DNA of 64,000 nt from Buttiauxella agrestis (GTDB lineage: Bacteria > Pseudomonadota > Gammaproteobacteria > Enterobacterales > Enterobacteriaceae). The notes below the pieces were generated by a model, which was given only the letters and a program-made list of their open reading frames with translations, had not been told where the DNA came from and did not search any database. A program made the position numbers and the translations under genes. Where the stretch lies: assembly GCF_900446255.1 (NCBI RefSeq), contig NZ_UIGI01000001.1:770763-834762 (forward strand). Reading direction: 5' to 3'. Positions 39,236 through 44,888 of the stretch are shown here, one piece after another. Position 1 is the first letter of the stretch, and each line of letters opens with the position of its first letter.

Positions 39236-39273
39236 AAATGGCAGTCGCCTAAAGTTAGAGACGAACTGCCATT
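39231..39273 (-). terminator. Terminator of the MxKDx operon
   Basis: Read on the minus strand: AATGGCAGTTCG / CGACTGCCATT (one bulged base, 14-nt loop) followed by TTTTATTTG. It ends the cytochrome b - oxidoreductase - MxKDx transcript 23 bases after the last stop. Confidence 0.72.
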
Positions 39274-39295: not shown

Positions 39296-39586
39296 TTATT
39301 TTTTATCCATTTCGCCTTTAGACATGCTGTCTTTGGACATACTATCCTTGGCCATTCCATCTTTAGACATATCATCTTTCTTCATTCCGTCTTTGGACAT
39401 GTGGTCCTTAGACATATTATCTTTATTCATACAGTCTTTTTTCATGCTGTCCTTAGAACAGTCATGGGACATTTTCCCCATATTATCTTTAGACATATTG
39501 TCTTTAGCCATATTATCAGCAGCGTTTGCTGCCGTTACGCCAAAGAATAATGCCGAGCACATCAAAGCAGTGTAGAGTTTTTTCAT
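39296..39586 (-). CDS. Secreted Met-rich MxKDx pentapeptide-repeat protein
   Basis: 96-residue precursor with a clear signal peptide (1-22, MKKLYTALMCSALFFGVTAA then NA, cleaved before ADN). The mature 74 residues are almost entirely repeats of the form M-x-K-D-x (for example NMSKD, HMSKD, GMKKD, DMSKD), with 14 methionines, two cysteines and no large hydrophobic residues, so it is probably unfolded and periplasmic. Proteins of this repeat type are annotated as MxKDx repeat family without known function. GAGGAA precedes the ATG. Last gene after a molybdopterin oxidoreductase (41-base gap). I infer a sacrificial, repairable methionine sink for oxidants; metal binding is an alternative. Confidence 0.85.
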   Translation of the reverse strand: MKKLYTALMCSALFFGVTAANAADNMAKDNMSKDNMGKMSHDCSKDSMKKDCMNKDNMSKDHMSKDGMKKDDMSKDGMAKDSMSKDSMSKGEMDKK

Positions 39587-39627
39587 TTTGTATTTCCTCG
39601 TCGTTTTAATAACTACATGGTCAGAAA

Positions 39628-40416
39628 CTAGCTGCCGCCGAACCAGTTATAACCCTGGTCCTCCCAATATCCACCGGGATAGCGATTTGTGACTTCTATA
39701 ACTTGAATATGTTTTGGGTTTTTATATCCCAACTTGGTTGGCATTCTTAATTTCATCGGAAAGCCATATTTACGCGGTAATATTTCGCCGTCGTAAGTCA
39801 ATGCAATGATGGTCTGTGGATGTAATGCCGTCGCCATATCAATGCTGGTGTAGTAATCGTCGGCACATTTAAAACTCACGTAACGGGCATTTAAATCAGC
39901 ACCAATGCCTTTAAGAAATAGCGAAAACGGCACGCCTCCCCATTTTCCAATGGCGCTCCAACCTTCGACGCAAATGTGGCGTGTTACCTGGCTGACCTGC
40001 GCCATCTGGTGCAGTTGTGCCAGCGACCATGGCCGCTTATCTGCCACTAAGCCTGCAACCTCCAGCCGATAATCATCGCCATTAATCGTTGGCGCTTCAT
40101 CCTCGCTATAAAAGGCATTAAACGGGAAAGGACGCGTCATCATGCTTTCGGGATAAACCGGAGCCAGATCGTTGGCATTAAATAACCAGCCCTGGATTCT
40201 GTCGTTAAAGCGCGAAATACCGCTTAATGTAGACTCGACGGATTCATTACTGCTGATATCGCAGCCGGTCAGCATCATTAAACCGCCAAGGGTTAAACCT
40301 TGTTTTAAAAAACGTCGCCGTCCCTCAGATGATAACTGTTTATTAATTTGTTCAGAGGCATCCTGAATAATGACCGCTTTGTCGGAATCCGAAAAAATCT
40401 TCGTTTTATTAGACAT
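39628..40416 (-). CDS. Tat-exported molybdopterin oxidoreductase, sulfite oxidase/MsrP-like
   Basis: 262-residue predicted periplasmic molybdoenzyme. The N-terminus has a twin-arginine motif GRRRFLKQG (residues 32-40) before a hydrophobic stretch ending in LTGC (49-52), which looks like a lipobox; it could be a Tat-exported lipoprotein. The single sulfite-oxidase-type molybdopterin domain follows, with the probable Mo-ligand cysteine in RHICVEGWSAIGKWGG (Cys149). It is shorter than E. coli MsrP (334). AAGGAA precedes the ATG; the gene lies 9 bases after the cytochrome b gene, its likely electron donor. Substrate unknown; methionine sulfoxide reduction is inferred from the Met-rich neighbour. 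Confidence 0.88.
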   Translation of the reverse strand: MSNKTKIFSDSDKAVIIQDASEQINKQLSSEGRRRFLKQGLTLGGLMMLTGCDISSNESVESTLSGISRFNDRIQGWLFNANDLAPVYPESMMTRPFPFNAFYSEDEAPTINGDDYRLEVAGLVADKRPWSLAQLHQMAQVSQVTRHICVEGWSAIGKWGGVPFSLFLKGIGADLNARYVSFKCADDYYTSIDMATALHPQTIIALTYDGEILPRKYGFPMKLRMPTKLGYKNPKHIQVIEVTNRYPGGYWEDQGYNWFGGS

Positions 40417-40425
40417 TATTTTTCC

Positions 40426-41037
40426 TTAGCGCCCACGCAGCATAGCGAGTAAAGTTTTCGGCACCAGCGCGACCATAATTAAATGAATGACGATAAATCC
40501 CACCATGCCGGACATCGCAAAGAAATGGATGAGCCGGGCACTTTCATAGCCGCCGAGTAATTCACGCAGCAATGGAAATTGCACCGATTTCCACACCACA
40601 AAGCCGGAGCACACCAGAATGATCCCGTCGATCATCACGAATAAATACGCCAGCTTTTGCACTGTGTTGTAATGGTTAAGATCGTTATGAGCGAGCTTCC
40701 CACGCAATGCTGAAATAAAATCGCTGATTAATTCACGTGGCGAAAGCGGCCAGAATTTGCGTTTCAGGCGTCCGCTGAAGATATTTATCAGCAAATAAAT
40801 CACGCCATTTATGCCAAATAACCACATCCCCGCAAAATGCCATTGCAACGCGCCGCCTAACCAACCGCCGAGCGTTAACTCATTCGGAAAGCTGAAATTA
40901 AACAGCGGCGAAGCGTTATAAATTCGCCAGCCACTGCTCACCATAATGAGCATGGCAAGGGCATTCAGCCAGTGACAAAGCCTTAGCCATAATGGATGCA
41001 CTATGGCGGGTTTAACCTGAAACGTTGGCGTATCCAT
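40426..41037 (-). CDS. Membrane cytochrome b (b561/thiosulfate reductase type)
   Basis: 203-residue inner-membrane di-haem cytochrome b with four main hydrophobic segments. Candidate haem-ligand histidines are in RLCHWLNALAML, LQWHFAGMWLFG, HFFAMSGM and FIVIHLIMV. Start at 41037 (MDTPTFQVKP) is chosen with GGAAAT upstream; the frame extends to 41100 but the extension is not hydrophobic or conserved-looking. First gene of the three-gene minus-strand operon, it probably passes quinol electrons to the periplasmic molybdoenzyme, as MsrQ does for MsrP. It belongs to a different cytochrome family from MsrQ. Confidence 0.85.
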   Translation of the reverse strand: MDTPTFQVKPAIVHPLWLRLCHWLNALAMLIMVSSGWRIYNASPLFNFSFPNELTLGGWLGGALQWHFAGMWLFGINGVIYLLINIFSGRLKRKFWPLSPRELISDFISALRGKLAHNDLNHYNTVQKLAYLFVMIDGIILVCSGFVVWKSVQFPLLRELLGGYESARLIHFFAMSGMVGFIVIHLIMVALVPKTLLAMLRGR

Positions 41038-41180
41038 CGTTTTATTTCCGGTTATTGCGTTGAAATGAGTGTGGCTCAAATCTGTTCGCCAAAGTCTCAC
41101 GAAAAGTTAAATTAAATGTGATAACTCCACGCTCGAATGTTGTATAGACTCCTTCTAAGAGAGGCAGATAAGGCAAAGCA

Positions 41181-41891
41181 ATGAAGCCGAAAAAGTTGTT
41201 AATCGTTGAGGATGACGAAAATATTGCTGAACTCCTGCAACTGCATTTGCGGGAAGAAGGTTATGAAATTGTCCATGCGGCAGATGGTTCGCAGGGGCTG
41301 GAATTGCTAAAACAGGGCGGATGGGACGCTCTGATTCTGGATTTGATGCTCCCCGGTGTCGATGGCCTGGAAATATGTCGCTACGCCCGCACCATGACGC
41401 GTTATACGCCGATTGTGATGATTAGCGCGCGTTCCAGCGAAACGCACCGGGTTCTGGGGCTGGAACTGGGGGCTGATGACTACCTGGCAAAACCGTTTTC
41501 AATGCTGGAGCTAGTGGCACGCGTCAAAGCGCTATTTCGCCGCCAGGAAGCAATGAGCCAGAACCTGATGCAGGATGCCGGAACGCTCACCTTTGAAAGG
41601 CTGACTATCGACCCCCTTGCCCGTGATGTGCGGCTGAGAAATCAGCCTGTTGAACTGACACCGCGTGAGTTTGATTTGCTATGGTTTTTTGCCAAGCACC
41701 CCGGCAAAGTTTTCTCGCGGCTTAATCTGCTTAACCAGGTGTGGGGTTATCAACACGAAGGCTACGAACACACCGTAAACACCCATATCAACCGCTTACG
41801 TATCAAGATTGAAGATAACCCCGCAGAGCCTGAATTCATTCTGACGGTGTGGGGAAAAGGGTATAAATTCATTGCACCTCGACACGAGTAA
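41181..41891 (+). CDS. OmpR/PhoB-family response regulator
   Basis: 236-residue cytoplasmic regulator. The receiver domain (1-120) has the acidic pair Glu10-Asp11-Asp12, phosphoacceptor Asp54 in LILDLMLPG and the conserved lysine in DDYLAKPF. The C-terminal winged-helix domain (about 135-232) carries LTPREFDLLWFF and the HINRLRIKIEDNP recognition region. Divergent from the cytochrome b operon (143 bases between starts), so that operon is the obvious target. The sensor gene follows after 3 bases. The specific E. coli orthologue is not clear. Confidence 0.93.
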   Translation: MKPKKLLIVEDDENIAELLQLHLREEGYEIVHAADGSQGLELLKQGGWDALILDLMLPGVDGLEICRYARTMTRYTPIVMISARSSETHRVLGLELGADDYLAKPFSMLELVARVKALFRRQEAMSQNLMQDAGTLTFERLTIDPLARDVRLRNQPVELTPREFDLLWFFAKHPGKVFSRLNLLNQVWGYQHEGYEHTVNTHINRLRIKIEDNPAEPEFILTVWGKGYKFIAPRHE

Positions 41892-41894
41892 ACC

Positions 41895-43361
41895 ATGCGA
41901 AAACTCACGCTTTCCCAGCGCCTGACACTGGTTTTTGCGTTGCTGCTAATCACCTCTTGTTCATTGTTGGGGTGGCTGCAAATTCGCACCAGCACGCAAT
42001 ATAGCCAGGCGGTGATACAACAACTTTCTGGTTCGCTCGCGGAGCACATCAACCAAAGCTACCCGCTGCTTGGTCAGGATGGTCTGAACAATGATTCTGT
42101 GCGCAGTCTGTTTGATCACCTGATGACGGTAAACCCAAGTGTTGAGGTTTATCTGCTTGATCAAAAAGGCAATATTATTGGTGATGCAGCGCCACCGAAT
42201 CATATTAAACGCCATCATGTGGATTTGGAGCCGATTCAGGCCGCTCTCGATAAACAACAATTTCCACTCTACGGCGACGACCCGCGCAGTGCTGACGGCA
42301 AAAAAGTGTTTAGCGTCGCGGCAATGATGCAAAACGGCGAGGTTAAGGGTTACTTGTACATCATTTTGCTGGGTGAAAATTACAATGCCCTGGCAAACGA
42401 TGCGCGATTTAATACCATTTCAAAAGTAGTGCTGCTGACCATAGGCCTGATTGCATTATTAGGTCTGATTGTCGGTGGCCTGGCATTTCGCTGGATAACG
42501 CGGCCTCTGCGTTCGCTTTCACGCCAGGTGAACGCACTGGAAACGGGCGGCATGGCTGAGATGCAGGCCATGGCGGCACTACCGCTTGATAAATCAAGCA
42601 GTAACGATGAAATTAGCCTGCTGCGCCAGGGGGTTATCACGATGGCGCGCCGTATTTCAGAACAGTGGCATCGGCTTTCACAGCAAGATCAACTGCGCCG
42701 AGAATTCATTGCCAATATTTCCCATGACTTACGCACGCCATTGACGTCGATGCACGGTTATCTTGAAAGCTTATCTGTGATGTCGGCGACGCTTTCGGAA
42801 GCTGAGAAAAAACGTTATCTGGAAATCGCTTTAGCGCAGAGCCAGAAAGTCCGCACCCTTGCGCAATCATTGTTTGAGTTAGCGCGTCTGGAATATGGCG
42901 TTGTGAAGCCGCAAAAAGAACGCTTTTGTCTCGGTGAGTTATTGCAGGATGTCTTCCAGAAATTTGAGTTGATGACCCAGACACGGCAATTACAGCTGGT
43001 CGCTGATATCCAGCCAGGTTTGCCGCTGATCGATGCAGATTTGGGGATGATTGAGCGGGTGCTGACTAATCTGCTGGATAATGCGATTCGCCATACCCCG
43101 GAGCAGGGAGCCGTTGCGGTTCGCTTGTGGAAAGAGGGCGAAAAAGTCATGGTGCAGATAAGCGATAACGGGCCTGGTATTCCGCAGGAACTCAAGGAAG
43201 GTTTGTTTGTGCGTCCGTCGATAGTCAGCCAGTCTCATGTCAGAGTCGGCGGTTTGGGGCTGATGATTGTGCGCCAGATGCTGCAACTTCATGGCAGCGA
43301 TATTGCGCTGGTGGAAGGACCCGAAACCGGAGCCTGCTTCCGTTTTGGATTGCCGACTTAA
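41895..43361 (+). CDS. Membrane sensor histidine kinase
   Basis: 488-residue inner-membrane kinase partnered with the preceding regulator. TM1 spans about 8-28, a periplasmic sensor domain of about 150 residues follows, TM2 about 178-199, then a HAMP linker (RWITRPLRSLSRQV). The HisKA box NISHDLRTPLTSMHGYL (His277) and the ATPase N, G1 and G2 boxes (NLLDNAIRHT, ISDNGPGIP, GGLGLMIV) complete it. The periplasmic domain has no strong recognisable signature. As HprS senses oxidants for MsrPQ, it may sense periplasmic oxidation; this is inference. Confidence 0.93.
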   Translation: MRKLTLSQRLTLVFALLLITSCSLLGWLQIRTSTQYSQAVIQQLSGSLAEHINQSYPLLGQDGLNNDSVRSLFDHLMTVNPSVEVYLLDQKGNIIGDAAPPNHIKRHHVDLEPIQAALDKQQFPLYGDDPRSADGKKVFSVAAMMQNGEVKGYLYIILLGENYNALANDARFNTISKVVLLTIGLIALLGLIVGGLAFRWITRPLRSLSRQVNALETGGMAEMQAMAALPLDKSSSNDEISLLRQGVITMARRISEQWHRLSQQDQLRREFIANISHDLRTPLTSMHGYLESLSVMSATLSEAEKKRYLEIALAQSQKVRTLAQSLFELARLEYGVVKPQKERFCLGELLQDVFQKFELMTQTRQLQLVADIQPGLPLIDADLGMIERVLTNLLDNAIRHTPEQGAVAVRLWKEGEKVMVQISDNGPGIPQELKEGLFVRPSIVSQSHVRVGGLGLMIVRQMLQLHGSDIALVEGPETGACFRFGLPT

Positions 43362-43400: not shown

Positions 43401-44792
43401 TTAAGGAATCGGATAAGGAGTATACACGCCGTTTAGCGTGTGCAGGAACGCCACAATATCATCGACTTCGTTTTGTGGGAGCGTAGTCCCCACCTGATAT
43501 TTCAGCATTTGTTTTACCGCTTCATCCAACGTCTTAACATCCCCACGGTGGAAATATGGCGCTGTCAGCGCAACGTTTCGTAGTGTTGGAACCTTCTGGC
43601 GCAGGCGATCCCTGATATCTTTAGTGACATTCATACGCCCAATATCCGCAGAAGTGACTTCTCCAAACCCAAAATCTTTTTTCAACCCGAGTGGTTCAAA
43701 AGAGCGACCGCCGAGAATTTTACCGGTGTGGCAGGTGGCGCACTTGTTCTCTTTAAATAGCCTGTAGCCCTGTTTTTGCTGTGCGGTGAGGGCGTTTTCA
43801 TCGCCACGTAGATAATTATCAAAAGGAGCGTTTGGCGTGATCAGTGTCTTTTCAAATTCAGCAATGGCATCGGTAATGGTCGTGCCTGAGAAACCCTGCG
43901 GATAGACGGCCGTGAAATCGCGGGTCAGGATTGGGTCTTGCTTGAGTTTGTCAGTAATTTGATCCCAGGATTTTGATGCCATCTCAATCGGATTGAGCGG
44001 GGGACCACCCGCCTGGGCCTGAAGGTCGGCGGCACGCCCGTCCCAAAACTGCTCAATATTAAAGACGGAGTTAAACACGGTTGGCGCATTGATTGGACCA
44101 ATTTCCCCGCCCACGCCCTGTGAGGTTTTTAGCCCGTCAACACCACCGGCACCCAGCTGATGGCAATGCGCGCAGGAAATTGAATTATCACCAGACAAAC
44201 GCGGGTCGTGATAAAGCCGCATGCCTAACGCGACTTTCTGCCCGTCGACAGGAATAGAGCGTGGAATCGGTTGAACCGGTTCATTGCGACGATTTTCGGC
44301 CATATCAGGGGCGGCGTAATATTCAAGGCGCTGTTTTTGGATCCACTCCAGAAGCGTGGCGCGCTCCTGTTCATTCATGTGGCCCGCCCAGTGCAGCGCG
44401 GTATAGCGAGTCGGCGGCATGGTTTCATGTTCCATAACCCACTCGATTTTATTGAGATCGCTTTGCGGCGCAGCACTGCTTTCAAGCAGACTTTCGCGGA
44501 TATCGGTCAGATTGAAAGATTTGTAACCAAGCTGGATATCGTACTCCATCAGCTGTTTTGCCACCGGGAAGGTCGCATAAAAAGGTAGCTTTGCCTCCGG
44601 GGTATGGCAGTAATCACAGCCCTTTTCATTGAGGATGCCGAGTACGCTGGCACTGAGTGGGGGAAGATTGGCGGTTGTTGCAGCTAACTGATTACGGTCG
44701 GTGTCGTGGTAATGCACATACCCGACCAGACTGAGATATCCCACAATACCGAGACTTATAGCTGCGGTGAGCAACCTGGTAGTTTTTCTCAT
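43401..44792 (-). CDS. ccp: Tri-haem cytochrome c peroxidase (YhjA/Ccp-like)
   Basis: 463-residue membrane-anchored periplasmic peroxidase reducing H2O2 with quinol-derived electrons. An uncleaved N-terminal anchor (about 7-25) is followed by three CxxCH haem sites: CDYCH (59-63), CAHCH (207-211) and CATCH (351-355). The extra N-terminal haem distinguishes it from classical di-haem peroxidases and matches E. coli YhjA/Ccp, which supports anaerobic H2O2 respiration and is OxyR/FNR controlled. Start 44792 (MRKTTRLLTA) has GGAAAGGA upstream; the open frame to 44843 adds a non-conserved leader. In E. coli the gene is elsewhere; here it is next to the oxidant-module genes. Confidence 0.94.
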   Translation of the reverse strand: MRKTTRLLTAAISLGIVGYLSLVGYVHYHDTDRNQLAATTANLPPLSASVLGILNEKGCDYCHTPEAKLPFYATFPVAKQLMEYDIQLGYKSFNLTDIRESLLESSAAPQSDLNKIEWVMEHETMPPTRYTALHWAGHMNEQERATLLEWIQKQRLEYYAAPDMAENRRNEPVQPIPRSIPVDGQKVALGMRLYHDPRLSGDNSISCAHCHQLGAGGVDGLKTSQGVGGEIGPINAPTVFNSVFNIEQFWDGRAADLQAQAGGPPLNPIEMASKSWDQITDKLKQDPILTRDFTAVYPQGFSGTTITDAIAEFEKTLITPNAPFDNYLRGDENALTAQQKQGYRLFKENKCATCHTGKILGGRSFEPLGLKKDFGFGEVTSADIGRMNVTKDIRDRLRQKVPTLRNVALTAPYFHRGDVKTLDEAVKQMLKYQVGTTLPQNEVDDIVAFLHTLNGVYTPYPIP

Positions 44793-44888
44793 GCTGTTGT
44801 CCTTTCCAGAGATAAAAGCCGAATCAAGGCGATTCGTAACCACACTGTTTTTGTGGCCTTATCATCTGCAATGACAACGAAAGGATTG

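Follow-up and report, generated by a model that had tools for sequence, protein, structure and literature searches.

Cytoplasmic repair cannot be used for envelope proteins, and periplasmic systems therefore matter for survival under oxidants. One of them, MsrP-MsrQ (YedYZ) of Escherichia coli, is under oxidant-linked two-component control. Another two-component pair, OrhK/OrhR (C3564/C3565), has been described in the uropathogenic E. coli (UPEC) strain CFT073 together with the cotranscribed operon c3566-c3568 (PMC8550376). Here we report that a five-gene module in a 64,000-nucleotide stretch of Buttiauxella agrestis DNA (contig NZ_UIGI01000001.1, positions 770,763 to 834,762; hereafter the window) is the chromosomal, Buttiauxella-type ortholog of this UPEC system, which was published in 2021. 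We read it, with a probability of roughly 0.78, as an OrhRK-type periplasmic methionine-repair module, in which electrons would pass from quinol through a cytochrome and a molybdoenzyme to methionine sulfoxide.

According to the UPEC report (PMC8550376), c3566-c3568 are the most lowered genes in orhK or orhR mutants, and OrhR binds the c3566 promoter in electrophoretic mobility shift assays, a TCACA-N15-TGTGA inverted repeat being located just upstream of the -35 element. The operon is induced by tert-butyl hydroperoxide through the two-component pair, and mutants of orhK, orhR, c3566 and c3567 are sensitive to the same compound; the oxidants used in that work were host-derived H2O2 and tert-butyl hydroperoxide. 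What others have established with the E. coli ortholog is that the operon is cotranscribed, that the regulator binds its promoter, that peroxide induces it and that mutants are peroxide-sensitive; the evidence discussed below (genes, operator, terminator, signals for export and lipid attachment, and conservation) comes from sequence.

The Buttiauxella locus and its relatives

The minus strand carries a four-helix membrane subunit of the cytochrome b561/FdnI type (C3566-like; 40426-41037 from its ATG; PF01292), a molybdopterin oxidoreductase exported by twin-arginine translocation (Tat) (C3567-like; 39628-40416; PF00174) and a Met-rich secreted MxKDx pentapeptide-repeat peptide of 96 amino acids (C3568/MrpX/BcrX-like; 39296-39586; assigned by TIGR02953 and composition). 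This operon is divergent from an OrhR-type response regulator of the OmpR/PhoB family (41181-41891, plus strand; PF00072 and PF00486, i.e. Response_reg and Trans_reg_C) and an OrhK-type sensor histidine kinase (41895-43361, plus strand; HAMP, HisKA and HATPase_c). The promoter of the operon holds the OrhR inverted repeat: the core TCACG-N15-TGTGA at 41097-41121 is one arm base off the published sequence, and its G is the common form among relatives. The predicted operator as a whole occupies 41095-41128 (plus strand), which is 58-91 bases ahead of the cytochrome ATG. The reading frame of the cytochrome is open upstream to a GTG at 41100.

An earlier interpretation made from the DNA letters alone (the sequence-only reading) had recognised these five genes, and the frame listing and family scans bear out all their positions and strands; the domains listed above likewise confirm its divergent OmpR/EnvZ-type pair. 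The single terminator that it had assigned to the minus-strand trio also stands, as an intrinsic hairpin at about 39237-39273 (minus strand; -19.2 kcal/mol, z -4.84, none of 200 shuffles equally stable) followed by a U-rich tail; this hairpin is absent from the list of a simple terminator scan. What did not hold is the idea of an independent, self-contained new assembly, which we reject because the same five genes had already been published in UPEC (PMC8550376).

The gene order and orientation of the window recur at a locus of another urinary isolate (L031), to which the identities are 48% (peptide), 64% (enzyme), 57% (cytochrome), 65% (regulator) and 47% (kinase). Partial matches at 60-80% identity were found in 351 of 5426 E. 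coli genomes, none of them covering 80% of the query, and megablast returned no near-identical E. coli copy. Among the 366 places in E. coli that match part of the module, 74 are on plasmids.

Co-occurrence elsewhere, which the sequence-only reading had named as a check, was surveyed in a scan of one genome for each of 84,980 species. In the best 80 loci among the matches listed, a same-strand cytochrome adjoins the enzyme in all 80, the Met-rich peptide is present in 77 (missing in L056, L060 and L101), and a regulator and a kinase are linked in 39 and 38, respectively. Going by the titles of the records, 37 of the loci belong to Pseudomonas, with further hosts among Enterobacterales, Achromobacter and other Burkholderiales. 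L106, whose record bears the title Chryseobacterium, is probably a mislabelled or contaminated entry, as it has almost the same promoter region as an Enterobacteriaceae genome (L016). A Raoultella planticola locus (L036) has the regulator and no kinase match; its kinase is possibly broken or missing.

The peptide scores 88.6 bits on TIGR02953 (penta_MxKDx; cut-off 41), and its E. coli ortholog scores 35.2, under the cut-off. The 14 Met in 74 mature residues counted by the sequence-only reading are confirmed if cleavage after residue 22, a position chosen by eye, is assumed; with a background of 2.5% Met, such a count has a P of about 4e-9. Met-rich frames elsewhere in the same loci are rare (6 of 9715 frames examined). 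Within 99 related genomes, an MxKDx match lies no more than 1 kb from each of the 18 close homologs of the molybdoenzyme (identity at least 69%), an association beyond chance. The combination of peptide, enzyme and dedicated regulator seen by the sequence-only reading is upheld. In one genome (G038) the peptide alone is divergent from the two-component pair, with an operator between them.

On one side the module is flanked by a short-chain dehydrogenase/reductase (SDR) gene and then by a frame resembling gcvP, which we take to be that gene. On the other side lie a cytochrome c peroxidase gene (43401-44843, minus strand; CCP_MauG, Haem_bd and Cytochrom_C domains), convergent to the kinase, and a family-1 glycosidase gene. 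The peroxidase was considered as a sixth member of the module and rejected, because its presence and placement vary in the genus (present in L114, L124 and L033, with no match in the stretches viewed of L122, L115, L032, L034 and L035) and the window has no OrhR site in its vicinity.

The molybdoenzyme and its cytochrome partner

The molybdoenzyme contains a twin-arginine motif (RRRFL, residues 33-37), LTGC at 49-52 and RHICVEGWS at 146-154; all 39 sequences aligned agree in R33, G51, C52 and C149. Cys149 is the predicted Mo ligand, and the conserved Tat-lipoprotein box (LTGC-D) predicts an inner-membrane lipoprotein. The closest named matches, among those listed, are from Buttiauxella (91-96% identity). 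The conserved His residues of the cytochrome are 14, 22, 67, 117, 171 and 185.

C3567 and C3566 are named as homologs of MsrP and MsrQ (27.6 and 23.1% identity) in the UPEC report (PMC8550376), and the family models used here give this assignment no support. On the MsrP equivalog NF003767 (cut-off 207) the window enzyme reaches only 79.3 bits and its E. coli ortholog 73.4, while a genuine MsrP (482.9-508.8 bits) is present besides in all 12 same-genus genomes searched. The MsrQ model NF003831 (cut-off 130) gave no match up to E 10 with either the window or the E. coli cytochrome; the control, a genuine MsrQ (L163), scores 224.8 on it and 57.9 on PF01794. For both cytochromes PF01292 is the only family over its cut-off (81.2 bits for the window protein; gathering cut-off 30.1). 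The enzyme is also far below the cut-offs of the sulfite dehydrogenase equivalogs SorA and SoxC (50.3 and 47.6 bits, against 600 and 420). The predicted fold, shared with sulfite dehydrogenase and nitrate reductase, does not discriminate between MsrP and sulfite dehydrogenase, and the structure model of the molybdoenzyme has a predicted local distance difference test (pLDDT) value of only 64.2. By family models, therefore, the C3566-C3567-type pair is not MsrP/MsrQ, as the sequence-only reading had already maintained, and we regard this reclassification as a new contribution.

A paralog clade of the enzyme (57-61% identity) has no MxKDx match within 5 kb in any of its nine members from the 99 related genomes. 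Two such loci (L121:5107-9332 and L126:1377-5614) encode, in this order, a secreted protein that is DUF5666-like by a match below the family cut-off, a cytochrome b and a Tat-lipoprotein molybdoenzyme, with no MxKDx peptide. Both are divergent from a two-component pair, which in L121 is CusRS/HprRS-like (regulator 334 bits on TIGR01387, cut-off 279).

The OrhR operator and its target genes

Of 53 distinct regulator-cytochrome intergenic regions, 50 carry at least nine of the ten arm bases of the operator, compared with a mean of 0.37 and a maximum of 3 after shuffling. The conserved block exceeds the published repeat, reading CCTCACGCAAAGTTAAATTAAATGTGATAACTC over 28 distinct sites, and roughly one or two copies of the extended operator are present in a genome. 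When the 80 loci were scored, 76 had a single site and four (L056, L060, L089 and L104) had none. Since the matrix was trained on sites from linked loci, the independent part of this result consists of the 37 matches among the 41 unlinked loci (36 of the 37 Pseudomonas loci and Citrobacter locus L102). A genome-wide kinase search for 15 of the 41 revealed a single OrhK ortholog elsewhere in each of 12 Pseudomonas genomes (50-53% identity) and in one Citrobacter (49%). The operon site is kept in 12 of these 13 kinase-bearing genomes (11 of the 12 Pseudomonas), being missing in G807 (locus L060). The other two genomes, G818 (a metagenome-assembled genome) and G819, gave no kinase at E 1e-40, and the operator is also absent from them.

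In all 12 Pseudomonas genomes an operator (scores 23.3-46.6) separates OrhK/OrhR from a divergently oriented Tat-type msrB; wider stretches, viewed for seven of the 12, show msrA after msrB in every case and dipZ between them in five. The pair in Citrobacter sp. On2M has as its divergent neighbours, again with an operator, a genuine msrP (499.6 bits; cut-off 207) and a genuine msrQ (224.8; cut-off 130), and the cytochrome operon is located elsewhere in the genome with an operator of its own. In an Enterobacteriaceae genome, G335, a second site precedes a secreted msrB-msrA pair that is unlinked; its orientation is that of the window and its distance is similar. In G016 the pair adjoins an msrB-dipZ-msrA cluster, whose msrB site is weak (score 9.2, far under typical sites, although none of 2000 shuffles scored as high) and only suggestive as an operator. 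At L142 an MsrA/B fusion adjoins the operon, independently of OrhR.

Of 48 matches in a pattern scan of 45 genomes, chosen for holding either the operon or the kinase, 45 lie at loci of OrhR, the cytochrome operon, the peptide, msrB or msrP (classes assigned by hand), the G335 msrB site being one of them, and three lie elsewhere; the reversed pattern gave three. A wider scan of 394 Enterobacterales genomes, with up to three mismatches, gave 72 matches in 62 genomes. Most of these are noise, because the reversed control pattern reaches about as many genomes (about 66). The 11 matches at OrhR or Msr loci include all nine with at most one mismatch and two of the six with two mismatches, and on a weight matrix of the 29-base core they score at least 26.6, the other 61 scoring 24.1 or less.

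OrhR orthologs therefore appear, from the placing of these sites, to control three periplasmic systems of methionine-sulfoxide reductase that are unrelated to one another. We consider it somewhat more probable than the contrary that they are lineage-spanning master switches whose operator has been passed among MsrPQ, MsrB-DipZ-MsrA and a third type, and that this third type (four-helix quinol cytochrome, Tat-lipoprotein molybdoenzyme and sacrificial Met-rich peptide) is a distinct, non-MsrPQ class of reductase. In the open-licence literature, covered as listings and openings of abstracts, we recognised no paper that ties OrhR orthologs to msrAB or msrPQ or that reclassifies the enzyme pair; the cross-lineage regulon is thus presented as a second new contribution. 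If it is real, OrhR and its operator could serve as a tool to find periplasmic methionine-repair genes elsewhere.

Proposed function and comparison with known systems

An oxidant in the envelope would be sensed by the OrhK-type kinase, which would phosphorylate the regulator; bound to the operator at 41095-41128, the latter would switch on the cytochrome-enzyme-peptide operon. Electrons would pass from quinol, the presumed donor, through the four-helix cytochrome to the lipid-anchored, periplasm-facing molybdoenzyme, which would reduce methionine sulfoxide of envelope proteins. The occurrence of OrhR sites before three different methionine-sulfoxide reductase systems is strong, if indirect, evidence and makes this compound the likely substrate. 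The Met-rich peptide may act as a sacrificial oxidant sink and is probably one of the substrates of the enzyme; both the sink and the recycling role are drawn from work reported for Azospira. In the kinase, two hydrophobic segments flank a putative periplasmic domain in which Met77 is found in 17 of 17 aligned sequences, and this residue is a possible sensor, a suggestion offered only as an idea. The periplasmic oxidant-repair function proposed by the sequence-only reading is broadly upheld.

Several observations weigh against this account. OrhRK orthologs occur with neither the operon nor a clear operator in G002, G010, G013 and G021 and in six genomes of one genus (L130-L135; L132 has a weak site of 9.1), while G034 has kept the pair and a strong site and lacks the operon. 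Conversely, operon copies without a linked regulator or site are found at L123, L125 and L056, and at L140:50-613 and L141:63-623 a divergent sigma factor gene takes the place of the regulator, an arrangement resembling the Azospira/Brucella type (the extracytoplasmic function (ECF) type of this gene was taken from a family scan of L140 only). The peptide is not obligatory, since three of the 80 surveyed loci lack it. In the paralog loci read (L121 and L126) cytochrome and enzyme follow the DUF5666-like protein, with the CusRS/HprRS-like pair in L121. As regards the regulon, the separate arrangements number about five, not dozens, because the Pseudomonas cases share descent; the G335 msrB site (26.6) is barely above the best noise of the 394 genomes (24.1), and that of G816 (19.0 on the 29-base-core scale) is below it.

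At L130-L135, L119 and L120 the OrhRK orthologs stand beside what are presumably rlmC and artJ-like genes, with no operon and no clear operator. The L123 copy (L123:6073-8148) is a second operon copy in G012, found also in G011; it lies beside a YdgH/BhsA-like protein in a stretch with no pair or operator.

The best surviving alternative, which we nevertheless consider unlikely, is that the enzyme reduces some other compound in the periplasm, either a different S- or N-oxide or a reactive oxyanion (examples being hypochlorite products, chlorate and a small sulfoxide); the peptide would then be only a bystander sink, and the repair of protein Met incidental. A fold shared with sulfite dehydrogenase and nitrate reductase would suit such an activity, as would the paralog clade, with no MxKDx peptide near any of nine members the DUF5666-like protein instead in the two loci read, and the CusRS-like pair beside the one scanned; this alternative is opposed by the three reductase systems preceded by OrhR sites, which have methionine sulfoxide as their common denominator.

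Protection against copper is less probable still. The Met-rich peptide would then bind Cu(I) and the enzyme would keep its Met reduced, as MsrPQ does for CusF. According to PMC9302797, MsrPQ is itself copper-induced through CusSR and repairs CusF, which makes a copper link plausible for the paralog clade, whose L121 locus adjoins the CusRS/HprRS-like pair. The regulator of the window, by contrast, falls short of both relevant models (TIGR01387, 176.3 bits against 279.2; HprR, 166.5 against 353), the Met residues are spaced about five residues apart, 37 of the 72 peptides counted have no Cys, and no copper genes were recognised in the listed neighbour frames, where no dedicated search was made. 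A chance or hitch-hiking cluster with no joint function is hardly credible: the pair and the operon each occur alone in some genomes, but the peptide accompanies 18 of 18 close homologs, the cytochrome is found in 80 of 80 loci and the operator is kept after unlinking.

The proposed methionine-repair module can be compared with four known systems. MsrP-MsrQ of E. coli resembles it in pairing a haem-containing membrane partner with a Tat-exported molybdoenzyme that has the sulfite-oxidase fold and a CVExWS motif at its Mo-ligand Cys. The window enzyme differs in being a predicted lipoprotein, and its cytochrome is a four-helix, FdnI-like PF01292 protein, whereas the genuine MsrQ control matches PF01794. 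Periplasmic MsrA/MsrB with a DipZ-like thiol donor share operator and regulator with the module in Pseudomonas and, as an unlinked pair, in G335; these are unrelated thiol-based enzymes that, unlike the window enzyme, contain no molybdenum.

MrpX-YedYZ of Azospira suillum and BcrXQP of Brucella melitensis have in common with the module a Met-rich MxKDx peptide, a molybdo-Msr system and induction by oxidants. In Azospira the MsrP/MsrQ homologs are reportedly accompanied by an ECF sigma/anti-sigma pair. The same combination is described for BcrXQP (PMC8315932). No ECF sigma/anti-sigma gene stands beside the window operon, where the response regulator and histidine kinase are found instead.

The closest likeness is to the UPEC OrhRK module, which has the same five genes, order, orientation and operator. 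The Buttiauxella module is inserted between the SDR gene (next to the presumed gcvP) and the cytochrome c peroxidase gene and ends in a strong terminator. The UPEC module instead belongs to the pheV island and shares a transcript with the adjoining hemolysin operon (PMC8550376). If the regulon reading is correct, the “MsrPQ” of this pathogenicity island would be a widespread environmental reductase of the third type, which in UPEC has become coupled to a toxin operon.

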